Origin: a virus
Direction: 5' to 3' (one strand)
DNA: 28,802 bases
IMG/VR virus record: IMGVR_UViG_3300021964_000367
Coordinates: 1 to 28,802 of that record
The notes beneath the pieces are model-generated. The model ran no database searches and was not told where the DNA came from. It worked only from the letters and a program-made list of their open reading frames with translations. A program made the translations under genes and the position numbers. Positions 9,639-24,261 of this stretch are shown piece after piece (the first letter of the stretch is position 1; each line of letters opens with the position of its first letter).

Positions 9639-9986
9639 TTAAGCATTTAGAGCTTCCATCTTAGCCCAGATTTCATTTGCGGTTGCCGTAGGGTCAAAAG
9701 GTATCCACACGCCAGAATTTGGTATTGTTTCAGTAGGGGCCTCTTCCCATTCGCCCCAATCTTCTCCATTAGTTTGTAAGTAATTCTGCAAATCAACTTT
9801 TGCAGCAAAAACAGAAAAATCACCGCTGGCGTTGTCTTTGGAGATACCTACATAATAAAAATCTTGTGGTGAAGGGTCACCTGAAGGAACGGCACAGGTT
9901 CCTATAACCTGATTCTCTCCCGTGTATAAAAACTCAGGCTGTTCCCCGCCTGCGTTCAAAGTGTACTTTATTACTTGATGCGGCAT
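9639..9986 (-). CDS. Small acidic protein, 115 aa, overlapping the glycosyltransferase gene
   Basis: A 115-residue protein starting MPHQVIKYTLNAGGEQPEFL. GAGGTG lies 4 nt before ATG 9986. The first 53 nt overlap the 3' end of the glycosyltransferase gene in another frame, the largest overlap in the window between two convincing genes. The protein is acidic and beta-prone, with Trp-rich patches near the middle and C-terminus (GEDWGEWEEAP, SGVWIPFDP). It ends in a short helix (TANEIWAKMEALNA). It lies just before the nozzle gene. I recognise no family. A small virion or fibre-associated protein is plausible from position only. Confidence 0.68.
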   Translation of the reverse strand: MPHQVIKYTLNAGGEQPEFLYTGENQVIGTCAVPSGDPSPQDFYYVGISKDNASGDFSVFAAKVDLQNYLQTNGEDWGEWEEAPTETIPNSGVWIPFDPTATANEIWAKMEALNA

Positions 9987-10707
9987 TTTGCACCTCGTGC
10001 TGGTAAGCGTATTGTCCTGTGAATAAATATGCCCCCATATGCCCTAGTTGACACCACGGGGCGAGCCAAACTTCTCCACCCAACTCTCTATACGAATGAC
10101 AGAAACTATAGTCTTCAGATAATAGTTGATTATCTACATTTATTACTTTAAAAAAATCATATGTTTTATCTGGTTTTGCAACAGTCCCTGACCACTGCCG
10201 TTCTACATACCAACCAACATGAGGTTTTAACTTTTCAAAAACGGCTCTTTTTATGAGCATAAAACCAGTGCCGATATGTTTAACTTGGAACGGCTCATTT
10301 GGGTCTTGCATAGAATGGCCTTCCAGTTCATTAACATTAAATATGCCTGTTAGTTTACTAAGATCCGGATGATTACGAATTGCTCCTTCTTTTATGTCGG
10401 ACCAATTGATTCCTTTCATTGGTACAGCCCCACCTATGAGGTCTTTACCAGTTTTAATCATTTTAGCAATATCGTTCGGATTAAATTTTTGGTCTGCATC
10501 TATAAACATAAGATAGTCTGCATCTGTGTCCAAAAAAATTTTCGCAATTTTGTTTCTGGCTCTTTGCACTAGGCTCTCGTTTCCAACAAAGACATTCGTT
10601 AATTTTATGCTATTAACCAAACACGCTTCTTGAAAATTAAGTATAGATTCCGTGTATTCTGAGCAACACACCCCTCCATACATAGGAGTACCGACGACTA
10701 TATGCAT
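9934..10707 (-). CDS. Glycosyltransferase, GT-A fold (family 2-like)
   Basis: A 257-residue protein starting MHIVVGTPMYGGVCCSEYTE, the usual opening beta strand of a GT-A nucleotide-sugar transferase. The acidic metal-binding motif is at residues 70-72 (LMFIDADQKF). An acceptor-side block follows (HIGTGFMLIKRAVFEKL, 144-160), then a candidate catalytic-base Glu-Asp pair at 198-199 (SEDYSFC) and a late His at 223 (CQLGHMG). These are the landmarks of GT2-type enzymes. Sugar donor and acceptor cannot be read. The ATG shares one base with the stop of the upstream coiled-coil gene (TAATG at 10707). Lying between fibre and nozzle genes, it may glycosylate a virion protein; modification of host surface glycans is the alternative. 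The gene looks more AT-rich than its neighbours by eye. Confidence 0.82.
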   Translation of the reverse strand: MHIVVGTPMYGGVCCSEYTESILNFQEACLVNSIKLTNVFVGNESLVQRARNKIAKIFLDTDADYLMFIDADQKFNPNDIAKMIKTGKDLIGGAVPMKGINWSDIKEGAIRNHPDLSKLTGIFNVNELEGHSMQDPNEPFQVKHIGTGFMLIKRAVFEKLKPHVGWYVERQWSGTVAKPDKTYDFFKVINVDNQLLSEDYSFCHSYRELGGEVWLAPWCQLGHMGAYLFTGQYAYQHEVQNAASSNKVHFERRRGTA

Positions 10708-14212: not shown

Positions 14213-14428
14213 TTAGAGGGACGCCTCGCCAGAAGCTGAAGGAACGCTCGTAGCGTATATCTTCATACTTTGCTTCAAGTTTAAGGTTTGTCCACAATCT
14301 GAGCAAGTGTCTGCTTCTAATTCGCTTTCATCTAAATCGTAACCGCAGTTAAGACAGTACACCTCAATTTCGTGTTTACATACTATGGTTGAATCATCAA
14401 CCGTTATAGCTTCATTCAACTTTCTCAC
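14213..14428 (-). CDS. Small zinc-ribbon protein, 71 aa
   Basis: A 71-residue protein with two CxxC knuckles, C25-x2-C28 (CLNCGYDLD) and C42-x2-C45 (CSDCGQ), 13 residues apart, which is the spacing of a zinc ribbon. An extra Cys and His (C17, H19) lie upstream. The ATG at 14428 overlaps the end of the 22-residue-repeat gene by 4 nt (ATGA). No DNA-binding or enzymatic domain is added. In a virion operon it may be a small structural, assembly or regulatory protein; the sequence does not decide. Confidence 0.68.
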   Translation of the reverse strand: MRKLNEAITVDDSTIVCKHEIEVYCLNCGYDLDESELEADTCSDCGQTLNLKQSMKIYATSVPSASGEASL

Positions 14429-15492
14429 GCGGCGATCTCCTTCCAGACAGTAGATTGACTAGGTATAATCTTACTCCAAACCACAACATCTCCTATGATG
14501 CCTGTCGCAACCACTCCTATGGGATAAACCTTTGCTGAGCCTATTTGTGTTGTAGACCCAAGAGCAGTTGTGGCTTGCACCCCTGTGGGGAAAGCATTCG
14601 CACCTGCTTCAACAGTAGCAGTGCCTAATGCAGTGGTTCCTGATACCCCAGTAACATTTACGGTAGCATCAGCTTCTACTGAAGCTGTTCCTAACCCAGT
14701 GTTTCCTACTACACCAGTTGGGTAAACATAGGCTTCTGCAATGATTACATCACCGACAGCACCAGTAGCTGAGACGCCTGTCGGATGGACGCCTACACCT
14801 TCAGCGACATTGGCTGTGCCTAGCCCAGTAGTTCCAGATACACCTGTAGCCGCAACAATAGCGTCACCTGTTATTGTCGGACTTCCAAGCTCTCCTGTGG
14901 AAGCGTTGCCAATAACATTGATTTCACCACCAGCGTCTACAACCACGCTACCCAGAGTGAATGTTGCTTCTAATCCAGTGGGGAATATGCTTACTGCCTC
15001 TTGGACAGTTACTGAGCCTATCTGTCCAGAGGCTTGGAGTCCTAAAGAAGTACCCCAAGAACGCTGACCCCAAAAACCTCGACCCCATCCACCGAAACGA
15101 ACAGTCTCGTTCCATACAGTGTAATTAGCTACGCCTGTAGCAGAAACACCAGAGACACTAACTGTCGTATCACCACCAACAGATTCTTCACCCAATGCCG
15201 ATGTTCCAGCAACACCTGTCACAGAAACAGTAGCTACGCCTGTAACAGTTGGGCTTCCTAAACCTGTTGTTCCAGCAACACCTGTAGGACTGATGTTTGC
15301 TGGTGCTATTGTGGTTGTAGTTCCTAAAGAGGAAGTTAAACCAAAACCAGTAACAGAAACATCAGCGTTAGCCTGAACAGTTATAGAACCTAGGGACGTA
15401 GTCGCCTCTAGAGAAGAACTACCCTCTCCGTAAGCCTGATTACCCCATCCGTCTCTACCCCATCCTTGGAAGCTAACGGTTACATCAGTCAT
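14425..15492 (-). CDS. 22-residue-repeat virion protein with two Trp-Gly modules
   Basis: A 355-residue protein built of about fourteen repeats resembling PTGVSGTTGLGTATVEADA. The GV of the unit recurs almost exactly every 22 residues (71, 93, 115, then 173, 195, 217, 239, 260, 282, 304, 326). Two tryptophan-glycine modules start two blocks: residues 8-22 (FQGWGRDGWGNQAYG) and 133-147 (FGGWGRGFWGQRSWG). The array therefore looks like a duplicated block, the second with more repeats. The pattern fits a beta-solenoid or an elongated beta structure. The same unit occurs in the 16893-17615 protein and the Trp-Gly module in the nozzle protein. A peripheral tail or fibre component is inferred. Start ATG 15492 has no clear Shine-Dalgarno. 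Confidence 0.75.
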   Translation of the reverse strand: MTDVTVSFQGWGRDGWGNQAYGEGSSSLEATTSLGSITVQANADVSVTGFGLTSSLGTTTTIAPANISPTGVAGTTGLGSPTVTGVATVSVTGVAGTSALGEESVGGDTTVSVSGVSATGVANYTVWNETVRFGGWGRGFWGQRSWGTSLGLQASGQIGSVTVQEAVSIFPTGLEATFTLGSVVVDAGGEINVIGNASTGELGSPTITGDAIVAATGVSGTTGLGTANVAEGVGVHPTGVSATGAVGDVIIAEAYVYPTGVVGNTGLGTASVEADATVNVTGVSGTTALGTATVEAGANAFPTGVQATTALGSTTQIGSAKVYPIGVVATGIIGDVVVWSKIIPSQSTVWKEIAA

Positions 15493-15955: not shown

Positions 15956-16246
15956 TCACAGTTTGCTAATAATACGAGCCATATCGCTATGACCCTGTTT
16001 GGCTAACATCGCACACAGGGTTGTCCTGTCTGATCTGATAGCTTCCTTCATGTAGAATAAGATCAACTCTCTGATCCGCTCCTTATACACCAAGGCTTGC
16101 GCCTTGACCATATCATCAGCTGTATCACTGATTTCAATAAGTTTGTCAAGAACTCGCTCCGTTATTTCCTCAGGAGTAAATCCTCTATTTTGCGTGGTAT
16201 GCACCGCAACTTCTGAAAAAATGGAAGTAGCTTCAGCTCCGTTCAT
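15956..16246 (-). CDS. Small helical protein, 96 aa
   Basis: A 96-residue, almost entirely helical protein starting MNGAEATSIFSEVAVHTTQN, with FTPEEITERVLDKLIEISD and a central YKERIRELILFYMKEAIRSD helix. It overlaps the end of the adaptor gene by 4 nt (ATGA). No membrane segment, Cys pair or nuclease motif is visible. Its position right after the adaptor gene suggests a head-tail joining or assembly role, which is inference; I do not recognise the family. Confidence 0.72.
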   Translation of the reverse strand: MNGAEATSIFSEVAVHTTQNRGFTPEEITERVLDKLIEISDTADDMVKAQALVYKERIRELILFYMKEAIRSDRTTLCAMLAKQGHSDMARIISKL

Positions 16247-16896
16247 GATTGTGCAACTCTCCTAACAAGCCCTGTTCTGTACGCATCCGTTATTTCTTTA
16301 GCTTCGCCAAAGTTCTTGAGTGTAGCGATAGCCTCAGCAAATCTTTTTTCGTAGTTTGCCATTATGTCTGGCTCACCTTTCATATAAGTGTACGCTTCTA
16401 TAAGAGAACCGTACAGCATCGCTATTTTAGCATTTTCACTGAGCCACGTTGTACCACTATCTGATCCACTAGTGAGGCTAACAGGGCGGTAAAAATAATG
16501 AAGCTCCACGTTAAGGTTACTAGCAGGAGTAGGGGCCAGAATAAAATACCCTGTATCAAAAAGTGCATAGTATCTAGGGTTTCCGGTTACCGTTGAATCA
16601 GGGTTGTATTCTTGGACATAGTTGACGTCTTTATAATCTAGGAAAACAACATCACCATCACTGTTTGTATAAGACAGAGAAAAAGGAGCTAAGAAATCAC
16701 TAGGACAAACGAGATACTTGTCACTTGCTGTCGTATTGGCAGTGGCATTTCTACGGAAAAAAGTCAACTGAACGTTTTTAAGAATACGCTCTTCAGCGTT
16801 TTCAATAAACGTAGATAGGTTACTGACAAAACTAGCCTCAGTGTTCTGAGTGTAGTCTTGTATTGCCGTTTTAAGTTGTCCGTAAGTAAAACTCAT
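16243..16896 (-). CDS. Head-tail adaptor protein (phage adaptor family, tail-tubular-A role)
   Basis: A 217-residue protein starting MSFTYGQLKTAIQDYTQNTE. The N-terminal helices (FVSNLSTFIENAEERILKNVQ) and the beta middle (YLVCPSDFLAPFSLSY, DVVFLDYKDVNYVQEY, GNPRYYALFDTGYFILAPTP) match what I remember of the adaptor proteins that join portal to nozzle in podoviruses, functionally like T7 gp11. The C-terminal helices (AKIAMLYGSLIEAYTYMKGE) would dock on the portal. About 200 residues is the usual size. It overlaps its neighbours by 4 nt on both sides. A second adaptor-like gene lies at 17615-18295, so the window may encode two stacked ring proteins; which one contacts the portal cannot be decided here. 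Confidence 0.72.
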   Translation of the reverse strand: MSFTYGQLKTAIQDYTQNTEASFVSNLSTFIENAEERILKNVQLTFFRRNATANTTASDKYLVCPSDFLAPFSLSYTNSDGDVVFLDYKDVNYVQEYNPDSTVTGNPRYYALFDTGYFILAPTPASNLNVELHYFYRPVSLTSGSDSGTTWLSENAKIAMLYGSLIEAYTYMKGEPDIMANYEKRFAEAIATLKNFGEAKEITDAYRTGLVRRVAQS

Positions 16897-17615
16897 GCTG
16901 ACACCGTATTAACTTTATAGCCCATTCCACTATGCACAGAACAATATGTATAGAGCGTTGGCGCACCTATCGCTACATCAATTTGCGTGTACGCGCCTGC
17001 CGATCCTGGAGTTCCGTTATATGTAACACCTGTCGTGTATTCTACTCCACCGCCATGTGTGCCGTCTGGTGTTGTAGAAAAACGCAAAGGATGACCTGAA
17101 TTAGTGCCATCGGATTGATCATACCGATATATCAAGCCTTCGGTTACATCTAGTCCTGCAGGTCCGGGTTGCGCTCCGTCTTGATAATAAACATTACCCC
17201 CTCCAGGATTGTATACCGTCATTGTATACGTTGCTTCAATCGGAATTACACTAACTGTTCCTATAACCGTACTTCCTGAAACCCCTGTAGGCTGGACAGT
17301 CACACCACCTGTCTCTTGCGCTTGGACGGTTACACTACCAACGACCCCAACACCTGTGACAGAGCCAAGGGTTTCATTTTCAACAGTGGGGATACCAACA
17401 TAAACATTGTATGGCTCTGTCCGAGCAGGTCGTGGCTCATACAACGCTTGTGGGTCAACAGGGGTTGTGATCGGTTCAAGTTGTGGGTGCTTCGGCTCAT
17501 AGCACTCTTGACAAACAATAAACCCTGTCCATTCTTTTTGCATAGACAAGTACGGGTATTGTTGTCCACACCTGTCACATATTGATACCGAATGAGTGCC
17601 TATTGCATAGCTCAT
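16893..17615 (-). CDS. Zinc-ribbon + repeat + cupredoxin-like virion protein
   Basis: A 240-residue protein. I place the start at ATG 17615, fused to the upstream stop (TGATG), rather than the in-frame GTG at 17621. Three parts are visible. Residues 1-45 hold C13-x2-C16 and C35-x2-C38, a zinc-ribbon pattern (CDRCGQ ... CQECYE). Residues about 83-125 hold two copies of the 22-residue repeat seen in the 14425-15492 protein (VQPTGVSGSTVIGTVSV). Residues 130-240 resemble a cupredoxin: a His in a GHPLRFS strand (H175) and, near the C-terminus, CSVHSGMG with C225, H228 and M231. This is the His ... Cys-x2-His-x2-Met ligand pattern of a type-1 copper site. Copper binding is unproven; in a virion the fold may be purely structural. 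Confidence 0.75.
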   Translation of the reverse strand: MSYAIGTHSVSICDRCGQQYPYLSMQKEWTGFIVCQECYEPKHPQLEPITTPVDPQALYEPRPARTEPYNVYVGIPTVENETLGSVTGVGVVGSVTVQAQETGGVTVQPTGVSGSTVIGTVSVIPIEATYTMTVYNPGGGNVYYQDGAQPGPAGLDVTEGLIYRYDQSDGTNSGHPLRFSTTPDGTHGGGVEYTTGVTYNGTPGSAGAYTQIDVAIGAPTLYTYCSVHSGMGYKVNTVSA

Positions 17616-18295
17616 CAGCACACCCTATAAAAGTTTCTGTTAGGAGTGGCTTTATAATTAGCTCTATCCCTATCTTCCGAAGCCGCCCTCAGGAATTCTT
17701 GTTCGTAAACTGCTTGCAAAAGCTGTGTTCTATCTGGCGCTCTTTTCATGCTCAGATAATATGCCAATCCTGCCGCCAAACAAGGGTAAAAGCGGAAAGG
17801 GACTTCTACTGTGTTTTGTTGTGTATCTGCGTCGTCGATACGAACCAAACGATCGTATACAAGGCTGTAGGCTTTGTCTGGGGTCGGCCAAACCTTTACC
17901 TGTGGGGCAATTTGCCTGTCTACATAAAACTGCGTAGGACGCGCCTGTGTGTTTTTAGAGGGTATGTTTAAAAACTGTTGCCTGCCTACGCGCTCGATAG
18001 TTATGTCTTGCTGGTCACTTTGCCCTGCGTTAGTTCTAACAACAGCAGACAATATGTCAATGGTGTCTGCTCCAAGGCTATAAGAAGCCGTCCCTTGAAC
18101 TAAAGAAACCGTAGTTTCTTCAATAGTCCAACGATTCAGTCCACGGTTTGCCCAATCAGCAAAAAGTAGATTCAAAGAGCGTTTGGCGGACTTAAGGTCA
18201 TAACCCGTTTTAGGCTCTAACCCGCACCGCTCAAATGCTTCTTCAATATACTCCGCTACATCAAGCTCAAAATCTTTAGAACCAGAGACAGCCAT
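17615..18295 (-). CDS. Tail accessory / adaptor protein (P22 gp4-like role)
   Basis: A 226-residue protein starting MAVSGSKDFELDVAEYIEEA. It has an N-terminal helical part (DVAEYIEEAFERCGL, then SAKRSLNLLFADWANRGLNR), a beta middle (TVSLVQGTASYSL, DTIDILSAVVRT, QFYVDRQIAPQVKVWPTP), and C-terminal helices (YPCLAAGLAYYLSMKRAPDR). The architecture and size suit a gp4-like tail accessory protein that plugs or extends the portal. I recall the family from marine podovirus genomes without a firm name. Its stop is fused to the start of the cupredoxin-like gene. Together with 16243-16896 it probably builds the head-tail connector. The family call is from memory; the connector role is inferred. Confidence 0.7.
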   Translation of the reverse strand: MAVSGSKDFELDVAEYIEEAFERCGLEPKTGYDLKSAKRSLNLLFADWANRGLNRWTIEETTVSLVQGTASYSLGADTIDILSAVVRTNAGQSDQQDITIERVGRQQFLNIPSKNTQARPTQFYVDRQIAPQVKVWPTPDKAYSLVYDRLVRIDDADTQQNTVEVPFRFYPCLAAGLAYYLSMKRAPDRTQLLQAVYEQEFLRAASEDRDRANYKATPNRNFYRVC

Positions 18296-23766: not shown

Positions 23767-24261
23767 TTATAGATGCAGGATGTCGTCAGGGCTTGAGATT
23801 TTAGCTAAAATTTCATCATCATTAAGCAATCTAACCTCACCGCCTTCAATCTTAAAGCGGCTACCCGCATATCGACCGAAAATGACCCAGTCGCCTTCTT
23901 TACACCACGGCTCTGTTTTGGGGCCAAATTTATCTAGGTCTTTATATGCAAGTGGGCCAACTTTGAGCACATAACCACAAACCGTAGCAACGCGCTCTTT
24001 TTCCTGAGTTTCCGACGTGAGCAAAATACCACCATCAGACTTTTTCTTGCCCTGATAAGGCAATAACAAGATCCTCCACCCTGTAGGTGTGGGTAATCTT
24101 TCAAGTGCTGTTTGTGGGATTTTACTGGGATCTAAAACAACTTCATCAGCATCCACATAAGCTTCTGATAGTAATCCGTTGTTTTGTTGTGTGGGGGGTT
24201 TTTGTGCCTTTTGTGCTCTTTCTTTAGCAATGTGCTCTGGTACTAACAGAGAATCAGTCAT
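23767..24261 (-). CDS. GroES-like co-chaperonin (phage Cpn10)
   Basis: A 164-residue protein. Residues about 58-155 follow the GroES fold: TPTGWRILLLPYQ (first strand), KKKSDGGILLT (72-82), aligning with the GroES mobile loop KSAGGIVLT including its hydrophobic tripeptide, then TVCGYVLKVGPLAYKD, CKEGDWVIFGRYAG, and the C-terminal NDDEILAKI, like the GroES ending. The mobile loop binds the apical domain of GroEL. The first 57 residues are an extra polar region rich in Gln, Pro and acidic residues, absent from bacterial GroES (about 97 aa). It overlaps the upstream gene by 8 nt and lies just before scaffold and capsid genes, consistent with helping capsid folding through host GroEL, as T4 gp31 does. 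Confidence 0.86.
   Translation of the reverse strand: MTDSLLVPEHIAKERAQKAQKPPTQQNNGLLSEAYVDADEVVLDPSKIPQTALERLPTPTGWRILLLPYQGKKKSDGGILLTSETQEKERVATVCGYVLKVGPLAYKDLDKFGPKTEPWCKEGDWVIFGRYAGSRFKIEGGEVRLLNDDEILAKISSPDDILHL

Follow-up and report, generated by a model that had tools for sequence, protein, structure and literature searches.

A cupredoxin-like domain with a putative type-1 copper site in tail and virion-operon proteins of marine phages

In cells, cupredoxins serve as electron carriers and as oxidase domains. In amicyanin, the ligand loop has the spacing C-x2-H-x2-M. Another kind of beta-sandwich, the Ig-like decoration domain, is an optional and mobile addition to the structural proteins of phage virions. 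Metals in phage tails have been considered in the “Ferrojan Horse” proposal, in which iron in the tail fibres of phages would dock to siderophore receptors (PMC11705849). Here, we describe a gene in a 28.8 kb virus contig of an uncultured marine phage (28,802 nucleotides, analysed over its whole length and called the window below), the product of which combines a zinc-knuckle module, a repeat-like linker and a C-terminal domain predicted to be a cupredoxin.

Gene, neighbourhood and protein layout

The gene (16893..17615, minus strand, like all other features of the window given below) encodes a virion-operon protein of 240 amino acids, with an ATG at 17615 and the stop codon at 16893-16895. 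An alternative GTG is present two codons 5′ of this ATG; the homologues begin at the ATG-equivalent MSYA/MTFA. Residues are numbered from the ATG (M1, H8, C13, C16, M25, C35, C38, H43, M132, H175, H187, C225, H228 and M231). The gene is under purifying selection: for the cupredoxin part, comparison of the window with the related copy L001 (copies from other records carry such L numbers) gave a dN of 0.040 and a dS of 0.49.

The surrounding genes form a structural operon, from the portal and the major head protein through tape-measure-like proteins, which supports the virion-operon location given in a preliminary description of this locus. Directly upstream lies the gene for an SU10_adaptor-like head-tail adaptor (17615..18295; PF24175, E 3.5e-14), and directly downstream that for a second SU10_adaptor-like protein (16243..16896; PF24175, E 3.6e-24; phrog_2941). 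Because the gene sits between two proteins of PF24175 (phage SU10 adaptor), we infer that its product is located near the head-tail junction.

Further observations concern the window at large. One genome here encodes two SU10 adaptor-like proteins (PF24175), one on either side of the cupredoxin gene. A GroES-like co-chaperonin (23767..24261; PF00166, E 2.6e-12) is encoded within the structural operon, and a GroES-like co-chaperonin is annotated at a comparable place in phage 023Pt_psg01. A phage lysozyme (24451..24873; PF00959, E 5.2e-13) and, among the tail genes, a family-2 glycosyltransferase-like protein (9934..10707; PF00535, E 1.7e-4, slightly below the cut-off) are also present.

The N-terminal zinc-knuckle module (residues 1-76; 17388..17615) is phrog_28581-like (E 6.9e-15) and contains the two CxxC knuckles previously noted, C13-D-R-C16 (17568..17579) and C35-Q-E-C38 (17502..17513). 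AlphaFold2 modelled residues 11-40 with a mean pLDDT of 92-95 and the rest of the module with low values. The fold search of the PDB returned weak matches that include small zinc domains (best E 0.5), and Pfam gave DUF4428 at 0.21 only. The module corresponds to a core protein of some 110 amino acids with at least 600 pattern-matched relatives in IMG/VR. The cysteines of both knuckles are kept or lost nearly as a set: all four (CCCC) occur in 86 of 181 distinct N-terminal sequences, while the others have SSxE, CTGV and similar combinations with at most one Cys, the sole intermediate being one CCCD. That the four cysteines are either kept whole or replaced nearly whole supports a putative zinc site in this module that would be dispensable in many relatives. 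Across L323-L402 and other homologues, the nearly all-or-none cysteine sets make this a clear example of a putative zinc site lost as a unit from a phage structural protein.

A close relative, L323, with an N-terminus 80% identical to that of the window protein, ends where the latter continues into the linker and the cupredoxin. Because close relatives such as this one stop before these parts, the cupredoxin is, on the sequences compared, an optional C-terminal extension of a wider zinc-knuckle core protein. In phage 023Pt_psg01, the zinc-knuckle and cupredoxin domains are encoded by adjacent genes.

The linker (residues 79-125; 17241..17381) is repeat-like. It had been described as sharing the 22-residue repeat of another virion protein, and this stands in part. 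The other protein (14425..15492) does have a period of 22 residues (shifted by 22, it is 30% identical to itself), and the local resemblance between its repeat and residues ~80-130 of the window protein is real (E ~1e-6 to 1e-4); the likeness is loose, however, for the stretch in the window protein comprises about two copies only, with a best shift of 26. In copy L075, a cupredoxin is fused to a repeat like that of the 14425-15492 protein and to a GWG sequence. Beside the gene of the repeat protein, a 71-aa protein with two CxxC pairs is encoded (14213..14428; double zinc ribbon PF12773 at 0.0027, below the cut-off). The cupredoxin-like domain itself (residues 128-240; 16896..17234) is supported by the AlphaFold2 model, by fold matches in the PDB and BFVD and by PHROGs, where it matches phrog_27200, phrog_30742 and phrog_693 (tail fibre). 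The proposed fusion of the C-terminal domain to a zinc-knuckle domain and a repeat stretch is thus supported.

Predicted fold and proposed ligands of the C-terminal domain

With an alignment of 91 sequences (IMG/VR and the window) as input, AlphaFold2 predicted for the C-terminal domain a nearly all-beta structure of nine strands (mean pLDDT 96.9, pTM 0.89). H175 (17091..17093, within GHPLRFS), the first proposed copper ligand, is placed just before a strand (model strand 52-55); the penultimate strand ends with C225; the next loop holds H228 and M231, and a final strand comes after. These predicted positions of strands and ligands are in the order found in plastocyanin and amicyanin. The ligand loop, C225-S-V-H228-S-G-M231 (16923..16943), and H175 occur where they had been reported, and the C-x2-H-x2-M series, with its Cys closing the penultimate strand of the model, has the amicyanin-like order and spacing attributed to it.

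Searched against the PDB, the model found rusticyanin first (E 1.7e-3, TMq 0.56) and Cu nitrite reductase second (TMq 0.58), followed further down by CueO and laccases, interspersed with Ig-like domains; a Met148Leu rusticyanin is among the matches. The matches to single cupredoxins are weak, that E of 1.7e-3 being the best; the search of BFVD also gave matches. The model is thus a cupredoxin-like beta-sandwich whose best fold matches in the PDB are blue-copper proteins. A fold other than a Greek-key sandwich, or ligands that vary among homologues, would speak against the proposed site; as far as the model and the conservation among copies indicate, neither was encountered.

The ligands proved to be the most constant part of the domain. 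Alignment A7 combines the window copy with 15 diverged ones from cultured phages, and identities in it fall as low as 32%. Just four of its columns are invariant (first-row H43, C93, H96 and M99), and they coincide with the proposed copper ligands. The full set (HCHM) is kept by 286 of 294 distinct copies, three have HCHL, and L216 carries an Asp variant of the set. Type-1 sites with leucine in place of methionine are known, natural as well as engineered ones. None of the 294 copies lacks the Cys or the second His alone; the two are lost together, and always with the first His. The resulting site-less sets are YSQM (L026), NSQM (L046) and NSNL (L319 and L404). In these four copies, the rest of the domain is close to relatives despite the joint replacement of His, Cys and His, and in L319 a domain with a lost site is followed by an intact one in the same protein. 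A tight DNA pattern search for the lost-site motif returned only three contigs, all already known.

A tree of the copies, for which the ligand columns were left out, requires two independent losses of the Cys and second His, each accompanied by that of the first His. Joint loss of this kind is the pattern that a shared metal site predicts for such sequences; two events are too few for significance. We preferred this count of two to pairwise co-loss statistics, which are inflated by shared ancestry (other conserved columns also gave small values).

Sequence links to known cupredoxins hold for the family and not directly for the window copy. The latter alone has no match to Pfam Copper-bind (PF00127), either as a protein or in its record, and its sequence comparison with the PDB found no cupredoxin. 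Direct sequence comparison of alignment A2 and of copy L110 with the PDB likewise found none, and the domain alignment A3 gave chance matches only (SUMO, antibodies). By contrast with the window copy, L110, from IMG/VR, scores 22.1 bits against PF00127, above the cut-off of 21.2 bits, and L486 and others fall slightly below that cut-off. In profile-profile comparison (hhalign), A7 matched bacterial pseudoazurins at E 2.6e-6 (probability 88.7) with the Cys and second His aligned; A5 and A2 matched them weakly (probabilities 28 and 52), the first His being aligned too with A5 and unaligned with A2. Compared with the PDB by sequence, A7 gave two matches only at E<=1, Cu nitrite reductase (0.05) and pseudoazurin (0.55). 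The A7 profile also found a copy in phage P-HM1 (E 6.3e-10), which in turn matches plastocyanin 1b3i at 4.6e-5; nearly all other PDB matches of this copy are blue-copper proteins.

Other metal centres and a chance origin of the motif were considered and rejected: a c-type haem, since 50 residues separate the His from the Cys and there is no CxxCH; CuA, since the domain has a single Cys; and chance, since C-x2-H-x2-M occurs once per 658,017 residues in background open reading frames without the domain, equal to 0.00017 per 115 amino acids. Within the window, it occurs once among 18,148 six-frame residues.

In principle, the domain could be an Ig-like beta-sandwich that has no metal site and shows the His/Cys/His/Met pattern by coincidence, as the Ig domains among the weak fold matches would allow. 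The ligands are, however, the only invariant columns and are lost as a set, the P-HM1 copy provides a transitive sequence match to plastocyanin, and the motif has the low chance rate just given; we regard a fortuitous pattern as highly improbable. A cupredoxin fold with a type-1 ligand set, as predicted by the model, is by far the best reading of the domain, and we hold it with high confidence.

Distribution of the domain and presence in virions

With an IMG/VR relative as the query, 212 phage records matched at E<=0.01, nearly all of them marine cyanophages, with pelagiphages and Methylophilales phages in addition. Some genes that bear the domain are labelled hypothetical; the others have annotations as a tail fibre, a baseplate wedge tail fibre connector (T4 gp9-like) or a virion structural protein. 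P-HM1 and P-SSM2 have five matches each. Three cyanomyovirus baseplate wedge proteins, L236 (S-CAM22), L235 (P-TIM68) and L242 (Bellamy), have intact ligands near the C-terminus; the domain-bearing baseplate proteins of S-CAM22 and P-TIM68 are T4 gp9-like tail-fibre connectors. A metal-binding component of the particle had been expected to be unusual; that expectation fails, as the domain is widespread in marine phages. These phages share a large, apparently undescribed family of tail domains, and the sequences suggest that many ocean phages may carry a copper-binding module on their particles.

Outside phages, the whole window protein had no match in bacterial genomes, and the plasmids searched had no match to the domain. 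Alignment A3 found nine loci in bacterial genomes, two of which, in single-cell assemblies of SAR11, resemble phage tail fibres (L484 has PF03906). Among copies labelled as marine gammaproteobacterial, SAR86 and Lewinella, some have lipoprotein signals (lipobox), and two of these also have cadherin repeats. The marine bacterial proteins L482, L483, L488, L489 and L490 contain the same domain with intact ligands, several with a lipobox. It is likely that the domain has been exchanged between phages and bacterial surface proteins.

Published mass spectrometry has placed homologues in virions. S-SZBM1_206 was detected in CsCl-purified virions with nine peptides and an emPAI of 0.98 (PMC9146016); it has 498 amino acids and an intact site at its C-terminus. 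S-SCSM1_231, also with an intact site, has the GenBank note “virion protein”. In S-TIM5, the copy AEZ65678 is another with an intact site. S-SZBM1_53 (PMC9146016) and S-CREM2 gp130 (PMC10665884) were likewise detected in virions, and both contain copies of the domain without the site. We therefore rejected these two as proof of copper sites in virions. The persistence of site-less copies in virions means that the domain is also of use without a metal, the simplest function being that of a module for binding or spacing.

The same persistence is in keeping with a structural or adhesive cupredoxin fold whose site holds zinc or Cu(I) to stiffen it and is in nature neither redox-active nor copper-selective. 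Assembly in the cytoplasm, which offers zinc but very little free copper, would favour such a site, as would the replacement of Met by Leu in three distinct copies and the Asp variant of L216. A purely structural zinc site would, however, need no Met, and all four positions, the weak axial Met included, are kept in nearly every diverged copy. We consider a merely structural site unlikely, while giving it more weight than any other competing explanation. Copper is favoured over zinc because the Met is retained and because of the link to plastocyanin. Metal binding would matter in most copies, where the site is under strong selection.

The intact type-1 ligand set of most copies and the resemblance of the P-HM1 copy to plastocyanin could also point to a redox module, which would transfer electrons to or from a periplasmic or outer-membrane partner during entry. 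Against such a function, the domain is part of tail-fibre and baseplate proteins of phages with unrelated hosts (SAR11, methylotrophs and cyanobacteria), genomes have up to five matches, site-less copies exist, and no partner surface has been identified. Electron transfer is, in our judgement, very unlikely.

Possible role of the site and comparison with known systems

Copper is tightly buffered in the bacterial cytoplasm, the site of virion assembly. The protein, presumably anchored in the particle by its N-terminal zinc-knuckle module, would be assembled in the host cytoplasm without copper, and would take up Cu(I)/Cu(II) after exposure to the periplasm or to seawater. Loading after release is likely because assembly is cytoplasmic, and we think it quite probable that copper is bound in the released particle. 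The cupredoxin would then lie exposed, as a decoration or adhesion domain that depends on its metal, and would help the particle to hold the host surface. Copper as the metal, exposure of the domain and the role in adsorption are what we infer; adsorption is favoured because of the tail-fibre and baseplate context and the lipoprotein relatives. Adsorption or decoration as the role is a serious possibility, and we propose it tentatively. As a whole, the reading of the product as a virion zinc-knuckle protein with an optional cupredoxin, in which H175, C225, H228 and M231 would form a copper-loaded type-1 site serving adhesion or decoration, appears probable to us.

The particle-bound copper might instead be recognised by a copper receptor or chelator system in the outer membrane of the host. 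This “Trojan horse” would parallel the published occurrence of iron in phage tail fibres and its proposed docking to siderophore receptors (PMC11705849), and it could draw on the presence of the domain in tail fibres and baseplates of Prochlorococcus, Synechococcus and Pelagibacter phages and on the lipoproteins among the bacterial relatives. No such receptor is known, however, and in type-1 sites the metal is buried, a single His lying close to the surface, which sets them apart from a siderophore; by analogy with iron, receptor recognition of copper would be conceivable, and we deem it distinctly improbable.

Returning to metal-dependent adhesion or decoration, a wider proposition would be that marine tailed phages as a class bear functional blue-copper proteins in their tails and baseplates, loaded with copper after lysis and used for host contact, such that copper availability tunes adsorption in the ocean and phages are part of the pool of organic copper ligands. 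We put this forward as a speculation that is possible and rather unlikely to hold in full. What gives the site its interest is that the ligand set is the best-conserved feature of the domain across phages of Prochlorococcus, Synechococcus, Pelagibacter and marine methylotrophs and is common to marine bacterial lipoproteins. This would open a direct test of phage-tail metals in adsorption, an idea discussed for iron only in the papers covered here, and offers a testable function for several large tail-fibre families now called unknown.

Among open-licence papers, none was found to join a cupredoxin with a phage tail fibre, a virion or a cyanophage structural protein, the single joint match concerning Borgs; earlier notice elsewhere is possible, and individual phage proteins may already be labelled as cupredoxins in InterPro. 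The novelty lies in a cupredoxin in a new place.

The closest described proteins are those of the plastocyanin/azurin family (PF00127; amicyanin, pseudoazurin, plastocyanin and rusticyanin), which share with the window domain the beta-sandwich (here predicted) and the His ... Cys-x2-His-x2-Met order. In contrast to them, the window protein has no apparent signal peptide and is fused to a phage virion protein, and a conserved GTHGGGxEYTTGVT between the first His and the Cys loop sets the phage domain apart. The families phrog_693, phrog_30742 and phrog_27200 contain the same domain as the window protein, but they are labelled as tail fibre or unknown only, with no metal site noted in the collection searched. 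The Ig-like decoration domains are, like the cupredoxin extension, optional beta-sandwiches, but are without the conserved set of metal ligands. In the iron-containing tail fibres (T4 gp37 with its HxH sites; gp12 of alterophage R22Y), metal is also bound by tail-fibre residues, marine phages included (PMC11705849); there, HxH motifs of a trimeric fibre hold octahedral Fe, whereas the family described here has a predicted cupredoxin site formed by a single chain, with Cys and Met among its ligands.
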